IMG/VR virus record: IMGVR_UViG_3300028361_000024
Location: 1 to 64,000 of that record
Length of the DNA stretch: 64,000 bases
Source of the DNA: a virus
Direction: 5' to 3' (one strand)
The notes below the pieces were generated by a model. That model had not been told where the DNA came from. It worked only from the letters and a program-made list of their open reading frames with translations, and searched no databases. Every line of letters starts with the position of its first letter. Position 1 is the stretch's first letter. This document shows positions 4,590-61,656 of this stretch, in pieces. A program made the position numbers and the translations under genes.

Positions 4590-5651
4590 GTGAAATCAGC
4601 AATCTACACAATTGCTCTTAACGAACGCAAGTTTGTAGACAAGTGGTACGAGTCAGCTAAAGACGCGGACTATCTGCTAATAGCAGACACTGGCTCTACA
4701 GACGGAACCGTAGAGCGAGCGCGTGAGCTTGGCATACATGTCATCGAAATTAAAGTCACGCCTTGGAGATTTGATGATGCACGCAACGCTGCCTTAGCCG
4801 CACTTCCAGAAGATATTGACATGTGTGTTTCCCTGGACATGGACGAAGTAATTACTCCTGGCTGGGATAAGATTCTTTCAGATGCTTGGGAGCGCGGTGT
4901 AAATCGACCTCGTTATAAGCACATTTGGTCTTGGAATGAGGATGGGACCCCAGGGCTTGAGTTTAGCTATGACCACATCCACGGTCGTAAGGGATTCCGC
5001 TGGCGTCACCCCGTCCACGAGTGCATTTACTCTTATGGCATCGAGGAGAAGCAAGAGTGGCTAGACGGCATTGCAACTCATCACCACCCAGACCCAAGCA
5101 AGAGTCGCTCACAGTACCTTCCCCTGCTTGAGATGTCTGTCAAAGAAGACCCTCACAACGACCGAAACGCTTTCTACTATGGGCGTGAACTTTACTTCTA
5201 CGGGCGCTACATGGAAGCAGCGCAAGAGCTGAAGAGACACCTAGACCTTCCTACAGCCCACTGGGCACCAGAACGTGCTGCCTCAATGCGGTTTATTGGT
5301 AAGTCATTGCCCGCAGAGTCCGAGATTTGGTTTCGCAAGGCCATAGAGCAGGCTCCAGGACGCCGTGAGCCCTATGTAGACCTCACAAAACTCTACTATG
5401 ACCGTCAGGACTGGGTAAGATGCCTAGAAGTTGCAGAAGAGGCACTAGCCATTAAAGACAAGCCTCTAGAGTATCTTTGCGAGGCAGAGTCTTGGGGTGC
5501 TGCTCCAAACGACTACGCCTCTATTGCAGCGTACTGGCTCGGGCAGTATGAAAAAGCAACAGAGCACGCTCAAAAGGCTGTCGACATTGAGCCGCAGAAT
5601 GCACGAATGAAGAATAACCTAGTCTTCTGCCAAGCAGCCTTAGCTAAGTAG
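4590..5651 (+). CDS. Family 2 glycosyltransferase with C-terminal TPR region
   Basis: A 353-residue protein starting at GTG immediately after the previous stop. Residues 1-100 form a GT-A fold: YTIALNERKFVDKW, then ADTGSTDGT (nucleotide-sugar loop), WRFDDARNAAL and SLDMDEV, where the DMDE stands in for the metal-binding DXD. The middle holds HHHPDPSKSRSQYLPLL. Residues 180-350 are helical repeats of TPR type (RNAFYYGREL, then WAPERAASMRFIG, APNDYASIAAYWLGQYEKA). This architecture is known from SunS-like and other peptide- or cell-surface-modifying glycosyltransferases. Its place after the fibre genes suggests modification of fibres or of the host surface. It ends 8 bases inside the convergent whiB-like gene. 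Confidence 0.85.
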   Translation: MKSAIYTIALNERKFVDKWYESAKDADYLLIADTGSTDGTVERARELGIHVIEIKVTPWRFDDARNAALAALPEDIDMCVSLDMDEVITPGWDKILSDAWERGVNRPRYKHIWSWNEDGTPGLEFSYDHIHGRKGFRWRHPVHECIYSYGIEEKQEWLDGIATHHHPDPSKSRSQYLPLLEMSVKEDPHNDRNAFYYGRELYFYGRYMEAAQELKRHLDLPTAHWAPERAASMRFIGKSLPAESEIWFRKAIEQAPGRREPYVDLTKLYYDRQDWVRCLEVAEEALAIKDKPLEYLCEAESWGAAPNDYASIAAYWLGQYEKATEHAQKAVDIEPQNARMKNNLVFCQAALAK

Positions 5652-6171
5652 AGGGGCGAGAGACTTTAGGTCTTTTTGCTGCTTGCCTATCTTTTTCTCT
5701 TTGGCGTTTCAAAGCTTTTTCGGTGCGCTCTTGTTGATAAGCCAAAACCGCGTTAACGCTGGTTCTGCTTTTCCACGAAAACTCGCATACGGTGCAGATA
5801 ACTAATCTGGCAGTGGTCCATCTTCCGCCACCTGGAATCTCTACCGACTCTGTGACAAGCTTTGAGGGCCTAGCTGAACAGTATGGACAGTTAGGATAGC
5901 GCCTTCTACGGGCTTCTTCTCCCTTGTATGAGACTGAGAGCGTCCTACGCATTTCTACTTCGTCTTTGCCACCCCAGATGCCCCAAATCTGCCTGTGCTC
6001 AAGCGCCCACTGGAGGCACTGCTTTCTTACAGGGCAACTAAAACATAAATTTTTTGCATCGTATTTTTCGCTGGGCTCTTTAGAAAAGAACCAGTCAACT
6101 GCTCCACTATTCTCTGGCTGAGCGCAAAGAGCGTCCGCCTGCCATTTTAGATTGTCTGCTGGAGTCCACAC
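5644..6171 (-). CDS. WhiB-family Fe-S regulator with C-terminal zinc-ribbon extension
   Basis: A 175-residue protein starting at GTG. Residues 15-75 form a WhiB domain: Cys in ALCAQPE, then LCFSCPVRKQC gives C-X2-C-X5-C, followed by the GIWGG turn, so the four cysteines that hold a 4Fe-4S cluster are present. Unlike a usual 80-130 residue WhiB protein it continues with CPYC and CTVC, a C-X2-C...C-X2-C pair likely to bind zinc, and a basic tail (KALKRQREKDRQAAKR) suited to DNA or RNA contact. WhiB proteins are restricted to actinobacteria and their phages and act with the primary sigma factor. The gene faces the glycosyltransferase and overlaps it by 8 bases. Confidence 0.9.
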   Translation of the reverse strand: MWTPADNLKWQADALCAQPENSGAVDWFFSKEPSEKYDAKNLCFSCPVRKQCLQWALEHRQIWGIWGGKDEVEMRRTLSVSYKGEEARRRRYPNCPYCSARPSKLVTESVEIPGGGRWTTARLVICTVCEFSWKSRTSVNAVLAYQQERTEKALKRQREKDRQAAKRPKVSRPST

Positions 6172-6868: not shown

Positions 6869-7177
6869 CTACCGCTTAACGCGAAGTGGCAGTGGGATTC
6901 TAGGCTCCCTTATCGGGGGGACTCTCCTTTCAGAACGCAAGGCTCTACGCTGAAGGGGGGTCAATCCTCCCCATACTCCGTACTCTTCGTTTTCTAATCC
7001 CCACTCGGCGCACTCAGCCTTGTGTGGGCATGTGGCGCATACTTGCCTTGCGTACCTGTAGAACTCTTTTTCTATTTTTCCCACTGGGTCGTCTTTATCG
7101 GGAGCAAAAAATAGAATTGTCCCCACCTCTGCGCAAGCTGGGCTTTCATAGTTCCAAGGCTCTCGAAGAGCTGTCAT
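6869..7177 (-). CDS. WhiB-family Fe-S regulator
   Basis: A 102-residue protein of normal WhiB size. Cys in SPACAEVG, then VCATCPHKAEC (C-X2-C-X5-C) and the EYGVWGGLT turn make up the complete Fe-S binding set. The C-terminal tail is basic and proline-rich (RRVPPIREPRIPLPLRVKR), as in WhiB proteins that touch the promoter minor groove. This is the second WhiB protein within 1.5 kb; unlike the first it has no zinc-ribbon extension. It probably binds host primary sigma factor to redirect transcription. Confidence 0.9.
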   Translation of the reverse strand: MTALREPWNYESPACAEVGTILFFAPDKDDPVGKIEKEFYRYARQVCATCPHKAECAEWGLENEEYGVWGGLTPLQRRALRSERRVPPIREPRIPLPLRVKR

Positions 7178-53306: not shown

Positions 53307-53635
53307 TAACTTGTGTACTCCGATGGTATGTAGAAGTCTTCCCAGCCGAAAGCTGCTCGGGCTACGGGAATGGGGATGATTAGTGGTCGGGACCGCTCAG
53401 TGGTGCGTATAGCTCCAAAAACATCGTCCTTCTTGTTAACAAGAGTGGCGTTCTGCCAGTCGCGAGAACTCGTAAGACTCTTTAGCGGAAATGCCATGGG
53501 AAAGAGCGAGTTCTCAGATGTCATAGTCTCAAGAAAGCGGGACTGGTTGGATTCCTTGTTTTTAGGGTTCATCCATACAACCACAGCTAATTCATCTTCT
53601 GTATAGCTGCCACTCTGTGTCTTGTAAGTTCTCAC
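53306..53635 (-). CDS. Hypothetical protein
   Basis: A 109-residue protein starting at GTG that overlaps the upstream stop (GTGA). It has an aromatic C-terminus (FGWEDFYIPSEYTS) and a conserved-looking centre (RSRPLIIPIPVARAA). It belongs to the same coupled set of small genes in front of the portal. Function unknown. Confidence 0.55.
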   Translation of the reverse strand: MRTYKTQSGSYTEDELAVVVWMNPKNKESNQSRFLETMTSENSLFPMAFPLKSLTSSRDWQNATLVNKKDDVFGAIRTTERSRPLIIPIPVARAAFGWEDFYIPSEYTS

Positions 53636-54129
53636 TTGCTCAGTCTTCTGGCCATAGCGCGGTACGAAACCCCAGCGGCTGTGGCAATCTTTGCTGTGGG
53701 GACGCCCATGCTTCTGAGAGCCACAGCCATTGCGGTGAGGTCTCGGTTTGCTTGGGAGAACGGAGAGTCCGAAGTTGTGCGGGCGCGATAGCGCTTTGCA
53801 AGCTTGGCCAGCTCCTTGAGGCGCGGTTTCATGTCTGGCGGAACGTTGGGGGAGACTGAGCGCAGTCGGGGTGCTTTTTTAGTGGGAGTTGCGGTGGTGA
53901 GACTGCGAGGTGGCGGTGTGGGTATTTCGCGGAACTGCTTTGTTGCTTCCGCTTTTTTTACCCAGAAGTGGATTGTAGTCTTGGGTCGTTTGGGGTCAAG
54001 CGACTCGCCAAGAATAGATAAAGACCATCCAGCCTCCCAGAGAGCCCTAAGACGTGACTCAGCAACAGGGCGGGAAAGGGAACTGATGAAGTTCACTTCG
54101 TCCTGAGGAAGCAATGTCTTTGAGCTCAT
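53632..54129 (-). CDS. Two-HTH DNA-binding protein, candidate small terminase
   Basis: A 165-residue basic protein. A first helix-turn-helix lies in SRLRALWEAGWSLSILGESL with TTIHFWVKK as a recognition part; a second lies at the C-terminus in LRSMGVPTAKIATAAGVSYR. A Thr/Pro-rich linker joins them, and RLKELAKLAKRYRA lies between. It is first in the leftward late cluster, where a small terminase is often found, and similar two-HTH proteins are common in actinophages. A regulator role is equally possible. No good ribosome binding site is visible. Confidence 0.6.
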   Translation of the reverse strand: MSSKTLLPQDEVNFISSLSRPVAESRLRALWEAGWSLSILGESLDPKRPKTTIHFWVKKAEATKQFREIPTPPPRSLTTATPTKKAPRLRSVSPNVPPDMKPRLKELAKLAKRYRARTTSDSPFSQANRDLTAMAVALRSMGVPTAKIATAAGVSYRAMARRLSK

Positions 54130-54775: not shown

Positions 54776-54808
54776 TTGACATATGTCAGGAAGGTGTACT
54801 AATATAAT
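54776..54808 (+). promoter_or_regulatory. Early promoter with CAGGAAGGT element
   Basis: TTGACA (54776-54781), then five bases, then CAGGAAGGT, then a -10 either TAATAT (18-base spacer) or TATAAT (54803-54808, 21-base spacer). It drives the first rightward early gene. Confidence 0.75.
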
Positions 54809-54851
54809 AACTACAAGCCACCGCAAGGGGCACAACGAAGGGGAAAACAAA

Positions 54852-55055
54852 ATGACTACTTATTCAATCCGCATCATGGCAAACGGAATCGACTTCAACT
54901 TCCACACCACTAGCGTTGCGCAGTTGCGCGAATTGTTCGCTAGTACTTACCGCACTGGGACAATGGGAGACTTCACTATCTGGGCCGACAACGAAGAGCT
55001 AGGCCGCAACCAGAAGGCAGTGCTCGCTTTTGGACAACTTGCTTACACCAACTAA
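54852..55055 (+). CDS. Small early protein
   Basis: A 67-residue protein from the ATG at 54852, preceded by CGAAGGGGAAAACAAA, a leader almost identical to that of the next two genes. Upstream in-frame ATG at 54783 falls inside the promoter and is rejected. The sequence (YSIRIMANGIDFNFHTTSVA, LRELFASTYRTGTMGDFTIW) is a beta-alpha-beta layout of unknown family. Confidence 0.7.
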   Translation: MTTYSIRIMANGIDFNFHTTSVAQLRELFASTYRTGTMGDFTIWADNEELGRNQKAVLAFGQLAYTN

Positions 55056-55087
55056 CACCAACTAACACGAACGAAGGGAAAAACAAA

Positions 55088-55408
55088 ATGAAAGCAATGA
55101 CCGTCTCAACAGAAGGCAACATCTCAAAGATGGAGACCATGGACCTGGCCGCGCTTCAAACCGCGGTGGGGGGCTATGTGCAAGCTGTAGACCTAGGGGA
55201 TGACCTAACTATGTGGCTAAATGAGGAAGGCAAGCTAGAGGGGTTACCGCACAATGACGTCGGGCAAGTTCTATGGGATGCAACCTATGGCGCAGGCACA
55301 GACTACATCGTGGGTAACGTCGTAATAACGGGTGGCACAGGGGAGGAAGGCGAAACCTTGCCCCTTACTGCAAGCGCCGTTTTCAAGATTATGAGGATGC
55401 TCGAATAG
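55088..55408 (+). CDS. DUF3846-like early protein
   Basis: A 106-residue protein. LAALQTAVGGYVQAVDLGDD, LTMWLNEEGKLEGLPHN and IVGNVVITGG fit DUF3846, a small domain frequent in actinophage early regions and plasmids and of unknown function. It is preceded by the same AACGAAGGGAAAAACAAA leader as its neighbours and followed by a terminator. Confidence 0.78.
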   Translation: MKAMTVSTEGNISKMETMDLAALQTAVGGYVQAVDLGDDLTMWLNEEGKLEGLPHNDVGQVLWDATYGAGTDYIVGNVVITGGTGEEGETLPLTASAVFKIMRMLE

Positions 55409-55422
55409 TCACCGCGCTGAAG

Positions 55423-55449
55423 ACCCCGTCAGAAATGGCGGGGTTTTTC
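55423..55449 (+). terminator. Rho-independent terminator
   Basis: ACCCCG pairs with CGGGGT across a 10-base loop, followed by a T-run. It ends the first early transcript. Confidence 0.85.
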
Positions 55450-55485
55450 TGTTACCTAACCGTTACAAAGAAATGTCAGAAAGAT

Positions 55486-55515
55486 TTGACAAAGTACAGG
55501 AAGGTCTGCCATACT
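55486..55515 (+). promoter_or_regulatory. Early promoter with CAGGAAGGT element
   Basis: TTGACA (55486-55491), five bases, CAGGAAGGT, and CATACT as -10 after an 18-base spacer. It lies directly behind a terminator. Confidence 0.75.
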
Positions 55516-55544
55516 GTAACTACACAACGACGAAGGGAAACAAA

Positions 55545-55676
55545 ATGACTGCAATAATCCTAAAAGATGGAGTCACCACCACCTACCACTTTGACCCTCA
55601 GCACCACGAAGCCGTAAGTGCCTTTTACTCTGAAGCTTTTGCAAAGGGAGAAATTCAGAATTACCAACTTTACTAA
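55545..55676 (+). CDS. Very small early protein (43 residues)
   Basis: Starts at the ATG at 55545 behind ACGACGAAGGGAAACAAA; the in-frame ATG at 55473 lies upstream of the promoter and is rejected. The peptide (TAIILKDGVTTTYHFDPQHH, then AVSAFYSEAFAKGEIQNYQL) has a beta-alpha layout resembling a shortened version of the 67-residue early protein. It is flanked by its own promoter and terminator. Confidence 0.65.
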   Translation: MTAIILKDGVTTTYHFDPQHHEAVSAFYSEAFAKGEIQNYQLY

Positions 55677-55698
55677 ACCAACCAACAACAACCGAAAG

Positions 55699-55727
55699 CC
55701 CCCGCCGTAAAAAGCGGGGGTTTTTTT
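55699..55727 (+). terminator. Rho-independent terminator
   Basis: CCCCCGC pairs with GCGGGGG across an 8-base loop and is followed by seven T. Confidence 0.9.
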
Positions 55728-55762
55728 GTTACCTAACTGTGATAAAAACTTTCCTGACTTAC

Positions 55763-55792
55763 TTGACAAAGTGCAGGAAGGTCTGAGAGAAT
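55763..55792 (+). promoter_or_regulatory. Early promoter with CAGGAAGGT element
   Basis: TTGACA (55763-55768), five bases, CAGGAAGGT, and GAGAAT as a weak -10 after 18 bases. Confidence 0.7.
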
Positions 55793-55819
55793 GTACTTAT
55801 AACAACGAAGGGACACACT

Positions 55820-55966
55820 ATCAAAACAGAAACCCGTCAGTTTTTATCGCTAGTCACACTTGCCATCTTGGGAGTCTGGTTCATAGTGACAGAGAGCCAC
55901 CGCGTTGTAATCGGCTGGGCTTGGGACTTATTCGTATCATTCACCGACACCTACATAACTCTCTAA
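55820..55966 (+). CDS. Small membrane protein, apparent AUC start
   Basis: A 48-residue reading with one clear membrane helix (FLSLVTLAILGVWFIVTES) and an aromatic C-terminus. The leader CGAAGGGACACACT resembles the GGGACACA-ATG leaders of its neighbours, but the codon at the expected place is ATC. The next alternative would be an internal TTG inside the membrane helix, which would truncate it. Either AUC initiates, or the start has been lost by mutation or sequencing error. Confidence 0.5.
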   Translation: MKTETRQFLSLVTLAILGVWFIVTESHRVVIGWAWDLFVSFTDTYITL

Positions 55967-55976
55967 GGGGGACACA

Positions 55977-56261
55977 ATGACCAAGTCTAAAAATTATGAA
56001 GTAACAATCTGGGCTGATGGATTTCGACAATGGCACGCTAAGGCGGAGTTTTATCCCGCACTTGGCAACACAGGGGAAGCCGAGAGAATAGTAAGCAATG
56101 CCCTCAAAATGATGAAGCGAAACCTAAAGCGGATTATTGAGTATAACGACAGCGCAAGTCCTGATTATAGGTTCAAGTGGGAAGTTTGCGCGAACACCAC
56201 TACACCAGGACTAGGCACTCTAAGGAGTATCACAATCAGAGAAAAACAAACAACCGACTAA
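55977..56261 (+). CDS. Hypothetical early protein
   Basis: A 94-residue protein with GGGGGACACA directly before the ATG. YEVTIWADGFRQWHAKAEFY and a helical middle (RIVSNALKMMKRNLKRIIEY) give an alpha/beta layout; no family recognised. It follows the small membrane protein by 10 bases and probably shares its transcript. Confidence 0.65.
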   Translation: MTKSKNYEVTIWADGFRQWHAKAEFYPALGNTGEAERIVSNALKMMKRNLKRIIEYNDSASPDYRFKWEVCANTTTPGLGTLRSITIREKQTTD

Positions 56262-56273
56262 GGAGATAGCCAA

Positions 56274-56402
56274 ATGAACACCGCGAAGCCCCCCGAGAAA
56301 TTGGGGGGTTTTTCTTTGCCCAGGTACTTGACAAAGTGCAGGAAGGTATGTCATAATAGAGACATAGACAGAGAGGGACACAATGTACGGACTACCAGAT
56401 AG
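56274..56402 (+). CDS. Possible 42-codon mini-gene running through terminator and promoter
   Basis: AAGGAGATAGCCAA followed by ATG is the best ribosome binding site of the region. The frame covers the whole terminator hairpin and the next promoter, and stops inside the following gene. The peptide is basic and unremarkable. It may be a leader peptide whose translation opens the terminator rather than a functional protein. Confidence 0.35.
   Translation: MNTAKPPEKLGGFSLPRYLTKCRKVCHNRDIDREGHNVRTTR
56289..56313 (+). terminator. Rho-independent terminator
   Basis: CCCCCC pairs with GGGGGG across 8 bases, followed by TTTTTC. Located 15 bases inside the mini-gene. Confidence 0.85.
56328..56357 (+). 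promoter_or_regulatory. Early promoter with CAGGAAGGT element
   Basis: TTGACA (56328-56333), five bases, CAGGAAGGT, CATAAT (56352-56357) after 18 bases. This is the best match of the set to a primary sigma promoter. Confidence 0.8.
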
Positions 56403-56601
56403 CGCAATAGTAGGAACCGCAAAACGTGTTACCAGAGGAATCCGCGGGAAGCTAGTCAAGAATGACCGAGACTATGTAGAATTTCCCACCCCCTTCTGGG
56501 ACATGGTGGCCGAAAAAATAGACCAAGTAGCAGAGCGCAGAATCAAAAAGCAGACTCGCAAAGCTCACTTTGAAAAGCACGGGTTCTACCCCGCAGACTA
56601 G
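56383..56601 (+). CDS. Hypothetical early protein
   Basis: A 72-residue basic protein with AGAGAGGGACACA in front of the ATG. It begins YGLPDSAIVGTAKRVTRGIR and has a helical, Lys/Arg-rich end (ERRIKKQTRKAHFEKHGFYP), suggesting nucleic acid or protein contact. It has its own promoter and is the last rightward gene before the lysis genes. Confidence 0.65.
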   Translation: MYGLPDSAIVGTAKRVTRGIRGKLVKNDRDYVEFPTPFWDMVAEKIDQVAERRIKKQTRKAHFEKHGFYPAD

Positions 56602-56621
56602 AAACCAGCAAAATAGAGAAA

Positions 56622-56650
56622 GCCCCCTAGGGTAAAAATTCCTGGGGGGC
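56622..56650. terminator. Bidirectional terminator between early and lysis genes
   Basis: GCCCCCTAGG pairs with CCTGGGGGGC with one G-T pair. The leftward transcript sees TTTCTCTATTTT after it, the rightward one only CTTCTCGTTC. The loop contains GGTAAAAATT and belongs to the GGGTAAAAA family. Confidence 0.75.
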
Positions 56651-56689
56651 CTTCTCGTTCCTCAAACAAACGGCGCTGCTACTACGAAT

Positions 56690-56953
56690 TTAGTCGTCGG
56701 GGTTGCTAGCTTTCGACCCAGCTTCGCCAAACACTTCGTTTATTTCAGCAAGTGATAGTTTCCCGTCCTTGAGATACGCCCGTGATAGCCCCTCAACTAC
56801 TGTAGCTACTCCGCCAATCCCCGCCATCAAGAACGATTGCCAGAGCTCAACGCCCACAATCGTACCCGCTGCAACCACACTCAGTCCCGTTGCCAGGAAC
56901 ACAGCAACCATGCGGCCAACTATTGTTGCAACTTTTCGTGCTCTTTTTGACAT
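56690..56953 (-). CDS. Holin
   Basis: An 87-residue protein with two hydrophobic stretches (IVGRMVAVFLATGLSVVAAG and LWQSFLMAGIGGVATVVEGL), a basic N-terminus and a helical charged tail, as in r1t-like actinophage holins. It lies just downstream of the peptidoglycan-binding and transglycosylase genes in one leftward lysis cluster. It likely forms membrane holes that release the muralytic enzymes. Confidence 0.82.
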   Translation of the reverse strand: MSKRARKVATIVGRMVAVFLATGLSVVAAGTIVGVELWQSFLMAGIGGVATVVEGLSRAYLKDGKLSLAEINEVFGEAGSKASNPDD

Positions 56954-56990
56954 GGTCTTTCCTCTCCTATTGCATCTACGCCAGACGCAG

Positions 56991-57033
56991 CAACGCCCAG
57001 CACTCTCTATGATAAGAGAGATACTGGGCGTTG
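56991..57033. other. Long near-perfect hairpin in the lysis operon
   Basis: CAACGCCCAG pairs with CTGGGCGTTG, and inside CTCTCT pairs with AGAGAG across a 6-base loop; a two/three-base internal bulge separates the stems. No U-run follows in either direction. It lies between the holin and the peptidoglycan-binding gene and probably processes or stabilises the message. Confidence 0.65.
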
Positions 57034-57043
57034 ATTTGGGGGC

Positions 57044-57640
57044 TTAGATACTTACTGTTACTGGGGTACCAGCAAAAATAGCCTGAACCAGCTTCTCGTT
57101 CGTAAGGTTATTTGATTCAAAACCGTGGTCTGCAGCAAATTCCTTGATAGCTGCAAGAGTGCCCTTGCTCAAGTACCCGCGGTTGTCTGAACCCGCGCTT
57201 ACGTAACCAAGCTCCATCAACCTAACCTGAGTTACGCCAACTGAACGCGAGTTGTGCTCGTACATGCTCTCAAACACCAACTTGGTGCGTGAAACACTGA
57301 TTTCAGAGCCCAGGACTGTCGGAACAGTCTTTGGCTCGGGTTTTTTACCCTTTGGTGCTGCTGCCGCAGGGGTTGGGGCTTCAACCTTCTTCTCCTTGGC
57401 AACTTCAACAACCACTTCTGGTTCTTCTTCTACTGCTGCTGCTGACGCAACGACCACTTCTGGCTCAACTGCGCGCTCAAAGTCTGTTCCATCCTGAACC
57501 AGCCCGTCGCCGTCACCATCAACCGCGCCAACTTTGAAACCTTCAGGCTTTTCGCCTACTTTGCGTTCGAACTTTGTGCCGTCTTGTACCAGCCCGTCGC
57601 CGTCACCATCTCTGGCGTTAGCTTTGAATTTATCTGCCAT
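57044..57640 (-). CDS. Peptidoglycan-binding-like protein with two EF-hand-like loops
   Basis: A 198-residue protein. Two copies of DGDGDGLVQDGT (residues 11-22 and 41-52) are calcium-loop-like (D-X-D-X-D-G). A Val/Glu/Ala- and Pro/Lys-rich linker follows. Residues 125-198 (VGVTQVRLMELGYVSAGSDN, GYLSKGTLAAIKEFAADHGF) resemble a PG_binding_1 domain with its typical repeat of LG and a final AI. It starts on the stop base of the transglycosylase gene. A partner of the lysin or a second endolysin subunit is the likely role. Confidence 0.75.
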   Translation of the reverse strand: MADKFKANARDGDGDGLVQDGTKFERKVGEKPEGFKVGAVDGDGDGLVQDGTDFERAVEPEVVVASAAAVEEEPEVVVEVAKEKKVEAPTPAAAAPKGKKPEPKTVPTVLGSEISVSRTKLVFESMYEHNSRSVGVTQVRLMELGYVSAGSDNRGYLSKGTLAAIKEFAADHGFESNNLTNEKLVQAIFAGTPVTVSI

Positions 57641-58287
57641 TACTTACCTCCTGGGTATTCTTTGTACCATGTGTGATACGAACCTGTTGTACCTCCATTA
57701 TAAGCATCAGGGCCAATGCCCCATGGGCCCCAATTGGTCCCCTGTCTGCTCATCTCAAAGGCGATGCGTGCATTGACATACGGGTCAAACAAGTCTTCAT
57801 AAGAAGACAACCCGTACTTCTCCATGCGTGCAACTCCAAGCTTTCCTATCATGTTGATTTGGAATAGCCCGTAGCTGTTGTCTCCCGTACTGCTGTTGCC
57901 ATTGTGGGCTAAAGGATTGCCTGTGCTCTCCTTCATTGCCACGGCCCAAGCCTTACGCAGGGTGCTTTCTTCGAAACCAACACTCCTTAGCACTTCAATC
58001 AACTCTTCTTCATAAAAATGCTTCGGAAAGTCAGCAACTTCAGCAACTTCTGCAGCGGCAGCTAGTGGAATTTTTACCCCCACTTCCTCTGTTGCAGCGG
58101 CGTCTTCTTCATAACTTTGGGACCTTTGCGGCACAACCCGCTCTGATTCCTGCACTTCAATGCTTGATTCCGCAGCAATTTGACTTGCTGATGACCCAAA
58201 CTTTGCGCTTGCTATCGCTGACACGCTGATTAGTGCCAAAGTTATTCCGAACACGGTTATTTCTGCCGTTTTTCGATTGATACTCAT
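57640..58287 (-). CDS. SLT-type transglycosylase / lysozyme-like muralytic enzyme
   Basis: A 215-residue protein. An N-terminal membrane segment or signal (ITVFGITLALISVSAIASAK) is followed by an acidic linker to about residue 90. The catalytic domain holds AWAVAMKESTGNP (catalytic Glu), NSYGLFQINMIGKLG and FDPYVNARIAFEMSRQGTNW with GPWG, as in soluble lytic transglycosylase and Rpf-related folds. It cleaves peptidoglycan; the signal-anchor form suggests export by the host and release without holin action. Confidence 0.88.
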   Translation of the reverse strand: MSINRKTAEITVFGITLALISVSAIASAKFGSSASQIAAESSIEVQESERVVPQRSQSYEEDAAATEEVGVKIPLAAAAEVAEVADFPKHFYEEELIEVLRSVGFEESTLRKAWAVAMKESTGNPLAHNGNSSTGDNSYGLFQINMIGKLGVARMEKYGLSSYEDLFDPYVNARIAFEMSRQGTNWGPWGIGPDAYNGGTTGSYHTWYKEYPGGK

Positions 58288-58298
58288 AGAGTTCCTCT

Positions 58299-58709
58299 CT
58301 ACGAACGTCCGTAGTACATTACGTTCTCGTCGTTCCAGTCATACGCATTGACTCCTCGACGGTACGTCTGCTTATTCTTGGGCTTACCTAAGTCCTCAAG
58401 CTCCAGCATGGTGCTCCACACTGTATGCAGCGGACGCGTAAAGTCGTGTCCTCGTGCTTGGCCAGCTCTAGTTTTATAGTTTGTGTACTTCAGGGTCTCG
58501 CCCAGCTCCACTAACCAATCAACAAACTGTTCCCGAGTCAAGAAAACACGGTGCGGGTAGTCCCTGTTCTTTAGTTGGACTATTTTTGCGTCGTACCTCT
58601 CAACGAGTGGCTTCAGCGATTCCATGTCTCGACCTCGCACAACCATCTTGTTTTTATCTTGCGGGTCCTGCACTACGCTGACGAACCCTGTTTCACTAAA
58701 TAACCACAT
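58299..58709 (-). CDS. Hypothetical protein, pre-lysis gene
   Basis: A 136-residue protein. GFVSVVQDPQDKNKMVVRGR and LVERYDAKIVQLKNRDYPHR form a small alpha/beta unit that resembles uncharacterised actinophage proteins; the second half is helical and basic. The ATG follows AGAGGTAAAA, a member of the GGGTAAAAA family placed at the ribosome binding site. Confidence 0.65.
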   Translation of the reverse strand: MWLFSETGFVSVVQDPQDKNKMVVRGRDMESLKPLVERYDAKIVQLKNRDYPHRVFLTREQFVDWLVELGETLKYTNYKTRAGQARGHDFTRPLHTVWSTMLELEDLGKPKNKQTYRRGVNAYDWNDENVMYYGRS

Positions 58710-58711
58710 TT

Positions 58712-58867
58712 TTACCTCTGTTCTCTCGCGGAAAGCACCGCGCTAATAATTCCTATGAACCCTGCTGCTAGAACCCAGAGTTCGTTACCTAAAATGGCTG
58801 ACACCAAGATGCCAACAGCTGCAACAGCGGAGATAACCGATGTCCACACTACGTTTTGTAGCTTCAT
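58712..58867 (-). CDS. Small two-helix membrane protein
   Basis: A 51-residue protein. The first helix spans VISAVAAVGILVSAILG and the second LWVLAAGFIGIISAVLSA. The start overlaps the stop of the upstream HTH gene (TGATG) and the next gene follows after two bases, so it is well embedded in the operon. It could be a second holin or antiholin. Confidence 0.75.
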   Translation of the reverse strand: MKLQNVVWTSVISAVAAVGILVSAILGNELWVLAAGFIGIISAVLSAREQR

Positions 58868-59058
58868 CAGCTCCTCTTCTTGTCTGGACGAGTTCGTCCC
58901 ACTAGACGGGCGTGGGGGTCACGCAACACAACACCTTGGGCAAAGATTGCCTTCCGTGCTGTTCTGTATGCAACTCCCAGTTGTTTCGCCACTGCTTCAA
59001 GGGCTAGGCCCTCTTCATACAACTTGGCGGCTTCTTCTGCGATTTTTTCGCTTTTCAT
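58867..59058 (-). CDS. Small helix-turn-helix protein
   Basis: A 63-residue basic protein. AKLYEEGLALEAVAKQLGVA followed by YRTARKAIFAQG is a homeodomain/resolvase-like HTH, with the tail HARLVGRTRPDKKRS. It overlaps the small membrane protein gene by a TGATG junction and probably regulates this region. No partner domain present. Confidence 0.75.
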   Translation of the reverse strand: MKSEKIAEEAAKLYEEGLALEAVAKQLGVAYRTARKAIFAQGVVLRDPHARLVGRTRPDKKRS

Positions 59059-59084
59059 TCTGTCTTTTCCTCTTTCTATTGTCT

Positions 59085-59279
59085 TTATTGAGTAATAAAG
59101 TCTTTACACCAAAGGCTCATCTCTTCGAAAGGGACTTTGCACGCTTCAGGGGTGCCTAGTTCGGTCGCAACGGCCCATAGGGCAATAAACATTGCGAGTA
59201 AGGTCCACCCAATAAATAACCTACCGCGTCGGGTAAGCCTAATAGAGAGCTTGTGCTCGATTGCTTCGAAGAGGTCCAT
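59085..59279 (-). CDS. Small membrane protein
   Basis: A 64-residue protein with a basic N-terminus and one membrane helix (LFIGWTLLAMFIALWAVATE) followed by a Cys-containing extracellular-type tail. It is the first gene after the promoter at 59310-59338 and has AAAGGAC in front. Function unknown. Confidence 0.65.
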   Translation of the reverse strand: MDLFEAIEHKLSIRLTRRGRLFIGWTLLAMFIALWAVATELGTPEACKVPFEEMSLWCKDFITQ

Positions 59280-59309
59280 TATTTGTCCTTTTGTCCTTTG
59301 AATAATGCA

Positions 59310-59338
59310 AGACTAGCACACCTTCCTGCATAATGCAA
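59310..59338 (-). promoter_or_regulatory. Leftward promoter with CAGGAAGGT element
   Basis: TTGCAT as -35 (59338-59333), a 17-base spacer that contains GCAGGAAGGTG, and TAGTCT as -10 (59315-59310). It drives the lysis-side genes. Confidence 0.7.
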
Positions 59339-59356
59339 GAAGGTTGGCAAAAAGGA

Positions 59357-59611
59357 TTACTTAGTGCGTAACGCAATCAGACTGCGCAAAACTTCTTCTA
59401 GCTTGTCTGCGCTGTTGAAATGGCTCTTGTGCGAAATGTCTTCCTCTTCAATGAGCCTGTCAAGAGATAGAACCGCGATGTGGCCCTCTTGCTCGAACAT
59501 CACAACAAGTTTGGTTTCCCCGTCATTGGGGTCATCAATGATGCTTGCTGTAAATGGGGACGCTGTCCCGTTTGAATGGGTGTCAATGGCTAAGATGACT
59601 GGCTCTAACAT
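59357..59611 (-). CDS. Hypothetical protein
   Basis: An 84-residue beta-rich protein (MLEPVILAIDTHSNG, ETKLVVMFEQEGHIAVLSLD) with a helical end. It lies between a terminator and the 59.3 kb promoter and has no clear ribosome binding site, so expression is less sure. No family recognised. Confidence 0.5.
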   Translation of the reverse strand: MLEPVILAIDTHSNGTASPFTASIIDDPNDGETKLVVMFEQEGHIAVLSLDRLIEEEDISHKSHFNSADKLEEVLRSLIALRTK

Positions 59612-59801
59612 GCAATTAGTTTACTGCGAGCGCCGACCTTTGATTGGCAGACCACACACTTCTCCCCCCGAGAGAGAGGGAGGAGATGTGCGGGGAAAGG
59701 TAGAACCCCTCATCGCAAGCAGCGAGGCGAACTCCAGCAACTTGCGGCACCTCAAGGATACCTAAATTTTTACCCCTGTATTGCCGCCAGGAAAAGAAAA
59801 A

Positions 59802-59820
59802 GGCCCCCAGCAAGGAGGCC
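59802..59820. terminator. Bidirectional terminator
   Basis: GGCCCCC and GGAGGCC pair with one mismatch across AGCAA. T-rich runs follow in both directions (TTTCTTCTT rightward, TTTTTCTTTT leftward). It ends the 60.4-59.8 kb transcript. Confidence 0.8.
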
Positions 59821-59839
59821 TTTCTTCTTCAGCTGGCTG

Positions 59840-60055
59840 CTATTCGTCTACAATCCCAACATCATTGGCAGCTTCGAGGACATCCCACCCGTAATGCTCG
59901 CCCATCCAGACGGCAGCAATCCTAATTGCGAAGTCGTCATCTTTCTCAGCTTCTTGCCGTAGCACTTCATCGAGCTGAACTGTTGTCATCAGCGTGAAGT
60001 AATCCCCCACGAAGACCACTGTTCGGGTCAAAGCTACCTTGTCTACTGTGTCCAT
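59840..60055 (-). CDS. Hypothetical protein
   Basis: A 71-residue acidic protein (DEVLRQEAEKDDDFAIRIAA, then VWMGEHYGWDVLEAANDVG). The start codon directly follows GAAGGGTAAAAA, so the GGGTAAAAA family element doubles as ribosome binding region here. Function unknown. Confidence 0.6.
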   Translation of the reverse strand: MDTVDKVALTRTVVFVGDYFTLMTTVQLDEVLRQEAEKDDDFAIRIAAVWMGEHYGWDVLEAANDVGIVDE

Positions 60056-60058
60056 TTT

Positions 60059-60190
60059 TTACCCTTCTAGTTGTCGCGTTGTCGCTATGAAAAAAGATGC
60101 CATCACCAGCAAGGTGAATGTCATCAAACTCATTGGCTGAATAGAAAGCCCAACTCCCAGGAGAGTTGAGCCCACCACCAATTTTGTCAT
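60059..60190 (-). CDS. Small membrane protein (43 residues)
   Basis: A frame that fills the gap between its neighbours, starting at ATG 60190 five bases after the upstream stop. Two hydrophobic helices (LVVGSTLLGVGLSI and MTFTLLVMASFFIATT) are predicted. It ends inside the ribosome binding region of the next gene. Confidence 0.6.
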   Translation of the reverse strand: MTKLVVGSTLLGVGLSIQPMSLMTFTLLVMASFFIATTRQLEG

Positions 60191-60195
60191 CAGGT

Positions 60196-60432
60196 CTAGT
60201 CTCTTCCCAGTTGTTCCGAAATGCGCTCTTGTGTGATGCCCTGCGCCTTCATCAGCTTTGTCCAGAGTACTCCTGCTGCTGCGTACTTGTCCATCTTCTG
60301 GAACATCCTGTCCATGCTCTCATCCTTGTACATCTTGTGGCGTGACACCTCCAAGTTGCTAAGGGTTACGTAGATAGACATGGCTTCCGCTAACATCTCT
60401 ACTTCTTGACTATCCAGTTCAAACTTGTCCAT
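60196..60432 (-). CDS. Hypothetical helical protein
   Basis: A 78-residue helical, Met-rich protein (QEVEMLAEAMSIYVTLSNLE, SMDRMFQKMDKYAAAGVLWT). GGGAGGACACA precedes its ATG, the same leader type as in the rightward early genes. Its promoter lies at 60459-60487. Confidence 0.65.
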   Translation of the reverse strand: MDKFELDSQEVEMLAEAMSIYVTLSNLEVSRHKMYKDESMDRMFQKMDKYAAAGVLWTKLMKAQGITQERISEQLGRD

Positions 60433-60458
60433 TGTGTCCTCCCTCTGTTGAATACTTC

Positions 60459-60487
60459 ATGGTAGCACCTTCCTGCTGTCTTCGCAA
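60459..60487 (-). promoter_or_regulatory. Leftward promoter with CAGGAAGGT element
   Basis: TTGCGA as -35, 17-base spacer containing GCAGGAAGGTGC, TACCAT as -10. Confidence 0.7.
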
Positions 60488-60529
60488 GTACATTCGAATA
60501 ACTTTTTACCCTGAGCCAGAAACACGAAA

Positions 60530-60549
60530 CCCCTCCCGAAGGGGAGGGG
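60530..60549 (-). terminator. Terminator hairpin
   Basis: CCCCTCCC pairs perfectly with GGGAGGGG across a four-base loop. In the leftward transcript it is followed by TTTCGTGTTTC, a moderate U-rich tail. Confidence 0.75.
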
Positions 60550-60573
60550 GAGGGGCTTCGCTTTGGGGGAAGA

Positions 60574-60909
60574 CTACTTCGGCATTAGTACCGTGTAGTC
60601 AGTCACAGTCTGTGTGGCTGTGAACGCTTCTGGGAACAACTTCTCCAGTAGTTTGCGGTCAGTCCCTGCACGGCTACGGCTACTAACTTCAATCCGCACG
60701 ATGCCATCAACGGTAACAACCTCAGCGTTGCCAATCAATGCCTTGACCTGCTCTTCTAGTGCCTTCTTGGTCTTCTCCAAGTCGGTTACTGCCCTACGAG
60801 TTGCAAGGTAGTCGTTGAGAAGAATGCGAGATTCTCCTTCAAACTCCACCGAAACCTGCTCGGTGATGATTTCCTGAACTACCTTGTTGATTACTTGGGT
60901 GGTTGTCAT
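60574..60909 (-). CDS. Helical hypothetical protein with structured leader
   Basis: A 111-residue protein from the ATG at 60909, chosen over the GTG at 60918 because AAAGAG is at better distance. A long amphipathic helix (RAVTDLEKTKKALEEQVKAL) precedes a beta hairpin (EVVTVDGIVRIEVSSRSRAG). This shape is shared by small phage proteins encoded near recombination exonucleases, but no such gene lies here. It is the only gene on its transcript, behind twin leader hairpins and in front of a terminator. Confidence 0.65.
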   Translation of the reverse strand: MTTTQVINKVVQEIITEQVSVEFEGESRILLNDYLATRRAVTDLEKTKKALEEQVKALIGNAEVVTVDGIVRIEVSSRSRAGTDRKLLEKLFPEAFTATQTVTDYTVLMPK

Positions 60910-60936
60910 AACAATCACTCTTTCTTTATGTCATTT

Positions 60937-60984
60937 ACCCAGAGAGGCTATCTCGCTGGGTGTTGAGGAGGCTATCTCTTCAAC
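60937..60984 (-). promoter_or_regulatory. Twin leader hairpins with identical apex
   Basis: Two adjacent hairpins fill the leader. One has outer arms ACCCAG/CTGGGT, the other GTTGA/TCAAC; both end in the same GAG-loop-CTC apex with loop ATAGC in the transcript. The transcript probably starts a few bases before the first one. Confidence 0.65.
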
Positions 60985-60991
60985 TAGTATT

Positions 60992-61020
60992 ACTTTATAG
61001 CACCTACCTGCACTTGTCAA
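60992..61020 (-). promoter_or_regulatory. Leftward promoter with variant CAGGTAGGT element
   Basis: TTGACA (61020-61015), four bases, CAGGTAGGT, then TAAAGT after 17 bases or the overlapping TATAAA after 15. Confidence 0.75.
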
Positions 61021-61056
61021 GCCCATTCTGAAAGTTTTTATAACAAATTTATAACG

Positions 61057-61257
61057 CTAGACAGACCACAACAACTTTTCGTCTTTGTAGAGCTTGTCAA
61101 TCACGTCCTGCGCTTTCACGGGTTGCGGGGTAGCGCTTCTTCTTATGATGGTCTCAATCCAAGTATCTAGATTTTTTACCCCAATGATTTCGAACTTCTC
61201 CGCATCGGTCTTGCTGTGCCAAGCTTCGATTATTTCGTCTGCATCTAGGGTAGCCAT
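61057..61257 (-). CDS. Hypothetical protein
   Basis: A 66-residue protein (IIEAWHSKTDAEKFEIIGVK, then VIDKLYKDEKLLWSV). Its start codon coincides with the stop of the upstream gene. It contains one GGGTAAAAA element in the reading frame. Function unknown. Confidence 0.6.
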   Translation of the reverse strand: MATLDADEIIEAWHSKTDAEKFEIIGVKNLDTWIETIIRRSATPQPVKAQDVIDKLYKDEKLLWSV

Positions 61258-61460
61258 CAGTCTTTTTTCTCTAAAGCGTCAATAAGTTTGTCTAACTCAA
61301 CTCGGACATCGTGGTACGCGCCCAATGAACCGTGCGCATACTTTACTTCCAACGGGTTGTGCCTGAACTGTTCTGAGAGCCTGGCAGCAAGTTCCGCTTT
61401 TCCTATGACCCAGCCCTTTAGCTCACGCAAATCTTTCAAATTCTGTACGTTCTTACTCAT
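61257..61460 (-). CDS. Hypothetical protein
   Basis: A 67-residue protein, helical and charged (NLKDLRELKGWVIGKAELAA, LGAYHDVRVELDKLIDALEK). It is preceded by AAGAGG and coupled to the next gene. No family recognised. Confidence 0.6.
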   Translation of the reverse strand: MSKNVQNLKDLRELKGWVIGKAELAARLSEQFRHNPLEVKYAHGSLGAYHDVRVELDKLIDALEKKD

Positions 61461-61497
61461 TAGTTTTCCTCTTTCATTAGTGTTTGTCTGTTGTCGT

Positions 61498-61599
61498 TTA
61501 GCATTTTCCGCATACTTTTCCGTGCGTGTACTCTCGTTCCTCGCAAGAGAATTGCTCTCCGCAAGTCCAGCAGTGAATCCAGATAAGTTGTTTTGTCAT
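61498..61599 (-). CDS. Tiny zinc-ribbon protein (33 residues)
   Basis: Starts at ATG 61599 behind AAAGGAGACAGAG. The whole protein is a zinc knuckle: HCWTCGEQFSC followed by KVCGKC. An in-frame upstream ATG at 61779 lies beyond the promoter and terminator and is rejected. It has its own promoter at 61629-61656. Confidence 0.65.
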   Translation of the reverse strand: MTKQLIWIHCWTCGEQFSCEEREYTHGKVCGKC

Positions 61600-61628
61600 C
61601 TCTGTCTCCTTTGTCGTTCTAGAAAGTA

Positions 61629-61656
61629 GTATTACATTTACCTGCATAAAAAGCAA
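61629..61656 (-). promoter_or_regulatory. Leftward promoter with GCAGGTAAAT variant
   Basis: TTGCTT as -35, 16-base spacer containing GCAGGTAAAT, TAATAC as -10. A weaker member of the family. Confidence 0.5.

Follow-up and report, generated by a model that had tools for sequence, protein, structure and literature searches.

The window analysed here comprises bases 1-64,000 of the 67,828-base virus record IMGVR_UViG_3300028361_000024. It is part of the genome of an actinophage whose relative, Actinomycetia phage DSL-LC01 (portal identity of 71%), has a 129 kb genome recovered from a lake metagenome (PMC10611076). Eight promoter-like sites in this window, four on each strand, carry the same short element, CAGGWARRT, between the -35 and -10 boxes, and one of them serves the operon of a 63-residue helix-turn-helix (HTH) protein, hereafter HTH63. 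The element is probably a phage operator, and HTH63 is its most likely binder. The features of the locus are as follows, with each open reading frame (ORF) placed beside its promoter.

54776-54805, plus strand: promoter and predicted operator; TTGACA at 54776-54781, CAGGAAGGT at 54787-54795, -10 box TAATAT at 54800-54805; precedes an ORF starting at 54852 (67 residues); conserved in L010-L012.
55486-55515, plus strand: promoter and predicted operator; TTGACA at 55486, CAGGAAGGT at 55497-55505, -10 box CATACT at 55510-55515; ORF from 55545 (43 residues).
55763-55792, plus strand: promoter and predicted operator; TTGACA at 55763, CAGGAAGGT at 55774-55782, weak -10 box; downstream start codon uncertain.
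56328-56357, plus strand: promoter and predicted operator; TTGACA at 56328, CAGGAAGGT at 56339-56347, -10 box CATAAT at 56352-56357; ORF 56383-56601 (72 residues).
59310-59344, minus strand: promoter of the HTH operon with a near-palindromic double operator, ACCTTCCTGCATAATGCAAGAAGGT (59320-59344); -35 box TTGCAT at 59338-59333, motif at 59328-59320, -10 box TAGTCT at 59315-59310; downstream ORF start at 59279.
60459-60487, minus strand: promoter and predicted operator; TTGCGA at 60487, CAGGAAGGT at 60475-60467, -10 box TACCAT; ORF 60196-60432 (78 residues, start at 60432); weak weight-matrix match.
60992-61020, minus strand: promoter and predicted operator; TTGACA at 61020, CAGGTAGGT at 61010-61002, -10 box TAAAGT at 60997-60992; precedes an ORF from 60909 (111 residues; PHROG match: RecE-like).
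61626-61656, minus strand: promoter and predicted operator; TTGCTT at 61656, CAGGTAAAT at 61644-61636, -10 box TACTAC; 33-residue ORF from 61599; conserved in L011.
58867-59058, minus strand: HTH63, the proposed operator binder and autoregulator; recognition helix GVAYRTARKAI and conserved C-terminal arm RDPSARLVGRTRP.
59085-59279, minus strand: ORF for a 64-residue protein with a hydrophobic stretch, the first gene of the HTH operon.
56622-56650, plus strand: terminator-like hairpin seen in the sequence at the end of the plus-strand short-gene array.
5644-6171, minus strand: WhiB-like protein 1 by sequence comparison, not the first-choice binder.
6869-7177, minus strand: WhiB-like protein 2 by sequence comparison, not the first-choice binder.

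The combination TTGACA-N3..6-CAGGWARRT occurred five times in the window against an expectation of 0.00 (0 in 100 shuffles), and CAGGWARRT without the -35 requirement occurred 13 times against 4.2 in the shuffled sequences. The original prediction had listed the eight sites with a shared element 4-6 bases after the -35 box. All eight positions, which mark where each -35 hexamer begins, were correct, and the gaps were indeed N4-N6: every plus-strand site (54776, 55486, 55763 and 56328) read TTGACA-N5-CAGGAAGGT, while the minus-strand sites had TTGCAT-N4 at 59338, TTGCGA-N6 at 60487, TTGACA-N4-CAGGTAGGT at 61020 and TTGCTT-N6-CAGGTAAAT at 61656. The -35 boxes at 59338, 60487 and 61656 were weak (3-4 of 6 bases). 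Although all eight sites are real, the list was incomplete, as the same record holds two more promoter copies beyond the window, at 65305(-) and 66176(-), and a degenerate copy at 67644(-), TTGCAA-aatgtCAGATAAGTctg-TATAAT. The window copies outside promoters (3881, 14611, 35373 and 51728) were about as many as expected by chance. A position weight matrix (PWM) trained exclusively on 64 promoters from other phage lineages returned promoter sites as all of its top eight matches in the record, at 14.6-21.2 bits; the lowest scores among the window sites, 12.7 bits at 61644(-) and 11.3 bits at 60475(-), were level with a few chance matches.

Searching phage records by DNA similarity, with the 10-kb region as the query, gave no match, and relatives were collected via two neighbouring genes and via a 20-base signature (20-mer). 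In these related phages, an exact TTGACA lay within 7 bases upstream in 112 of 318 unique motif contexts (35%, a figure somewhat inflated by contigs recruited through the 20-mer) compared with 0.37% of random positions, and 101 of the 126 promoter-like cases had 17-18-bp spacers. A profile of 96 thinned promoters held information in the -35 box, in the motif and in the dinucleotide just ahead of it (TG or GT), with little in the other flanks; its motif positions are set by the search pattern, and the cross-lineage PWM provides the independent test. The search of the whole record and the relatives thus tied the element to promoters, and equal frequency at non-promoter positions was not seen. 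Most early promoters of the sister lineages lacked the motif. Because the exact 20-mer was found in 44 viral stretches, whereas a slightly looser form gave a single chance match, in coding sequence, in 257 Gb of bacterial and archaeal genomes, the element belongs to phages and is not a host promoter feature. Two candidate matches were set aside as chance: the genome-collection match L185, which is coding sequence of a Bacteroidales metagenome-assembled genome, and a BLAST match to Fusobacterium phage phiKSUM (31 bp, E 1e-3), which is intergenic in a phage whose annotation is otherwise unlike.

We compared the DNA-binding candidates across the motif-bearing phages and DSL-LC01, which has no CAGGWARRT promoters. 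The WhiB proteins and the product of 53632-54129 were conserved in DSL-LC01, and HTH63 was the candidate with a changed recognition helix there (YRTARK versus YGKARQ). A scan for homologues gave 80 loci, several of them in records that are fragments; at least one motif promoter was present at 62 of the 67 loci with the helix AYRTARK, while loci with altered helices had few or none. In L350 and L349, a distance of 40 bp separates the sole motif promoter from the HTH gene downstream (TTGACTTTTACAGGAAGGTGGTATAAAC, then ATG), and in L350 it is one of 19 strong promoters. The sole exact-motif promoter of L329 lies 274 bp before the HTH gene. In L336, L122, L339, L340 and L341, a direct motif pair 20-21 bp apart flanks the -35 box of the HTH operon promoter; L339 has a further 23 strong promoters, none with the motif, and the remaining four loci each have one further motif site. 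HTH63 is favoured as the most likely operator binder because in these distant relatives, where most other early promoters are free of the motif, the copies that are left are found at the HTH gene or in its operon. At the level of sequence, an operator lies at the regulator's own promoter, as in an autoregulated phage repressor. The original prediction had proposed the WhiB proteins and the small HTH proteins as binders; gene position in the distant relatives upholds one HTH protein, at 58867-59058, whereas the WhiB proteins, conserved in motif-free DSL-LC01, are not supported. For G044, a 136-kb relative, 111 short proteins were searched against Pfam; HTH63 matched HTH_23, the only HTH family besides WhiB and a serine recombinase among the 25 commonest families listed per scan. 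The structural model of HTH63 had three HTH helices followed by a short C-terminal helix and arm, with a mean predicted local distance difference test (pLDDT) score of 80. As a separate observation, a short protein of G044 matched the Thoeris inhibitor Tad3 (Pfam E 1e-18) and is a candidate counter-defence gene.

The HTH of L351-L353 was of the DSL-LC01 type, with the changed helix YGKARQ in DSL-LC01 and YAKARR in L351, and DSL-LC01 and L351 carry a different repeated promoter, CTAAAGAWGTTATAAT. In particular, CTAAAGAAGTTATAAT promoters were present in L351 (383, 1303, 2168, 2518 and 2743, all on the plus strand) and L353, resembling the CTAAAGATGTTATAAT array of DSL-LC01; none was seen in the shorter L352 locus. 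In DSL-LC01 (L062:23597-40590), 17 of the 20 TGTTATAAT copies make up an operator-like promoter array ahead of its short genes, mostly as CTAAAGWTGTTATAAT and in many cases between GATTC and GAATC. The CTAAAGAWGTTATAAT array is similar to that of the window in its position upstream of short genes, in related phages with a diverged HTH63 homologue. In contrast, its sequence is different, it overlaps the -10 box, and in DSL-LC01 it is often flanked by GATTC..GAATC.

The motif was also found reversed inside the spacers of relatives. At a promoter score of at least 11, there were 16 such cases, which include the same site repeated in close relatives, versus 1.3 expected at random positions; an example from G011 reads TTGACA-TCTTCCTGCACTCCTCTC-TATGAT. 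Additionally, some promoters had paired sites, either inverted with a 7-base gap or direct and 20-22 bases apart, and the inverted pair (7-bp gap), as at the HTH promoter of the window, recurs in several relatives, close to the HTH gene or upstream of it. An element that touches RNA polymerase should not tolerate reversal within the spacer, whereas a blocking operator fits; from the reversed sites and the near-perfect -35 boxes, we infer that repression by a blocking operator is favoured over RNA polymerase contact. The activator contact suggested by the original prediction is less likely on the same grounds, the -35 box being usually perfect. The results support the prediction's other proposal, an operator common to a regulon of short early-region genes, as the element is promoter-bound, phage-specific, kept across lineages with diverged flanks and absent from most sister-lineage early promoters. 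The early expression of the short genes is inferred from the genome layout.

Taken as a whole, the model that we consider probable from sequence comparison is that an asymmetric spacer operator is bound by a phage regulator, likeliest HTH63, which would repress its own operon and the short early-region genes. TG(N)CAGGWARRT would be this operator, lying in the spacers of sigma-A-type promoters across the early region in a clade of uncultured freshwater actinophages. HTH63, made from its own motif-bearing promoter, would occupy about -26 to -16 and exclude RNA polymerase, both at the promoter of its operon and, in this clade, at the promoters of the short-gene array in the early region. The double sites at the HTH promoter would give tight autoregulation. 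The role may be either early-gene shut-off after the first burst in lytic growth or silence in a lysogen. A resolvase-type recombinase gene in G044 and the description of DSL-LC01 as lysogenic by those who reported it (PMC10611076) do not decide between the two.

Several points weigh against this model. Five exceptional loci of one lineage, L344-L348, have the same recognition helix with no CAGGWARRT promoters, and the co-occurrence of motif and HTH is confined to one phage clade, so that the counts are not independent. In G030, G044 and G011, motif pairs about 99 bp apart lie outside obvious promoters. HTH63 is small, and its AlphaFold model yields only generic HTH fold matches (best VIA Z 5.5); its DNA binding and regulatory role are predicted from sequence, and another weakly annotated small protein could be the binder. 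As observations in their own right, the repeated words of L344-L348 are CCCCTAAAAA and TCTATAATA, and the pairs without an obvious promoter are 99-100 bp apart (G044 96809/96908, G030 26289/26388 and G011 92420/92520), possibly marking an origin or a non-coding RNA region.

The alternative that survives best is that a different phage protein, either the product of 53632-54129(-) or an unrecognised small protein, is the repressor and that the link to HTH63 reflects operon hitch-hiking. The gene at 53632-54129 is present in all motif phages examined, adjoins the first promoter and is suggested to have two HTH segments, and many small proteins of these phages lack annotation. We nevertheless consider this unlikely, as motif-free DSL-LC01 has the C-terminal helix of the 53632-54129 product in almost the same form, and the lone motif promoter of L349/L350 stands directly before HTH63. 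This 165-residue protein matched neither Pfam nor PHROG families and may serve in packaging or in regulation.

The reversed spacer sites count against two further alternatives, both of which we hold to be improbable. In the first, the element is an activator contact at which a phage WhiB-like protein, together with region 4 of sigma-A, reads the spacer and switches the promoters on. Two WhiB proteins are encoded, and WhiB-like (Wbl)-sigma complexes sit next to the -35 box, where the element lies. However, the WhiB homologues are conserved in DSL-LC01 despite the lack of the motif there, the -35 box is mostly a perfect TTGACA of the kind that seldom needs an activator, and about 50 kb separate the WhiB genes from the sites, whereas in distant phages the isolated sites are at the HTH gene. 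In the second, the element loads an antiterminator onto RNA polymerase paused at the promoter spacer, as lambda Q does. Lambdoid Q-binding elements (QBEs) lie between the -35 and -10 boxes, and the Q protein of phage 21 uses an HTH to bind direct repeats at that position (PMC6606751); the spacer position is the same here, and direct double sites also occur. Against this, the orientation of the sites is not fixed, which is hard to square with a geometry set by RNA polymerase, terminator-like hairpins follow some short genes, so that read-through is not an obvious need, and the 63-residue protein is an HTH with a short arm and little else. Recent duplication of a promoter cassette, with no function of the spacer itself, would explain why several promoters share the extra bases AAAGTG, yet it is very improbable given that the 9-mer and its two preceding bases are conserved in the 96 thinned promoters with little information in the other flanks, that the PWM from other lineages recovers the window sites, and that the gap to the -35 box varies and the orientation flips.

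Other features of these genomes were also recorded. Rfam and tRNA scans gave no matches. The most over-represented 9-mer of the window phage was GGGTAAAAA(T), with 18 copies versus 0.7 expected; it was also the top 9-mer in several relatives (34 versus 0.4 expected in G031). Its copies span 53963-67229 of the record, mostly on the minus strand (for example, 57350, 58079, 59775, 60064, 61181, 62594 and 63161), with a strong strand bias and usually one copy every several hundred bases, at gene junctions and within genes, with few at start codons. An upstream AACTTTC element was found mainly in this lineage and is possibly part of terminator T-tracts. The 160,704-base G010 has diverged copies of the same genes at both ends and looks like overlapping variants of a genome of about 137 kb.

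Returning to the model of HTH63 as a repressor at spacer operators, the comparative set suggests how such a regulon may have arisen: an ancestral HTH63 self-operator would have been copied into many early-region spacers, in either orientation, in one clade, while sister clades built similar arrays with another operator. We put forward this history tentatively, at somewhat less than an even chance. Within this set, a phage regulon seems to have expanded and its specificity to have shifted, which, if the history holds, would make these phages a natural series of both changes. How phages of the abundant freshwater actinobacteria control their genes is largely uncharted, and an operator-regulator pair is proposed here. 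If confirmed, a 63-residue protein acting over many promoters would be a compact, portable repressor. Additionally, the 20-base signature retrieves related phages from metagenomes.

Among known systems, the start-associated sequences (SAS) and extended SAS (ESAS) of Cluster K phages (PMC3203893) and the 17-bp repeats of Cluster O (PMC4351075) are similar in being short repeats spread across actinophage genomes. The Cluster K SAS is limited to the non-structural half and has no exact copy in the host genome (PMC3203893). The positions are different, however, as SAS lie at translation starts (PMC3203893) and the Cluster O repeats are palindromic (PMC4351075), while the element here is in promoter spacers. 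The lambdoid QBEs share the location between the -35 and -10 boxes and, in some cases, the direct repeats, but they act at a late promoter with a set geometry to the paused polymerase (PMC6606751), whereas many promoters on both strands, with reversed sites, carry the element here. In its proposed working, the system comes closest to the operators of Cluster A mycobacteriophages, although it departs from them in two defining points. The L5 repressor has 183 residues, contains two DNA-binding domains and recognises a 13-bp site, and most L5 sites lie outside promoters, in intergenic gaps where they halt elongation, are oriented with transcription and give no repression when reversed (PMC9283540, PMC6550527). 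Here, the excess copies are in promoters with non-promoter copies near chance rather than intergenic stoperators, and both orientations occur in spacers instead of following transcription. The candidate here has 63 residues and one HTH, and its matches were of the generic HTH_23 type, in searches that did not name a Rep family (about 183 residues, HTH plus Stoperator domain). Like the L5 sites, the element is asymmetric and present in many copies, and apart from one chance coding match it was absent from the 257 Gb of cellular genomes searched. The operators and stoperators of L5 and TipsytheTRex are likewise phage-specific asymmetric sites with many copies and a presence at early promoters, and the Cluster A phages also share an HTH regulator and sister phages with different site sequences (PMC9283540, PMC6550527).

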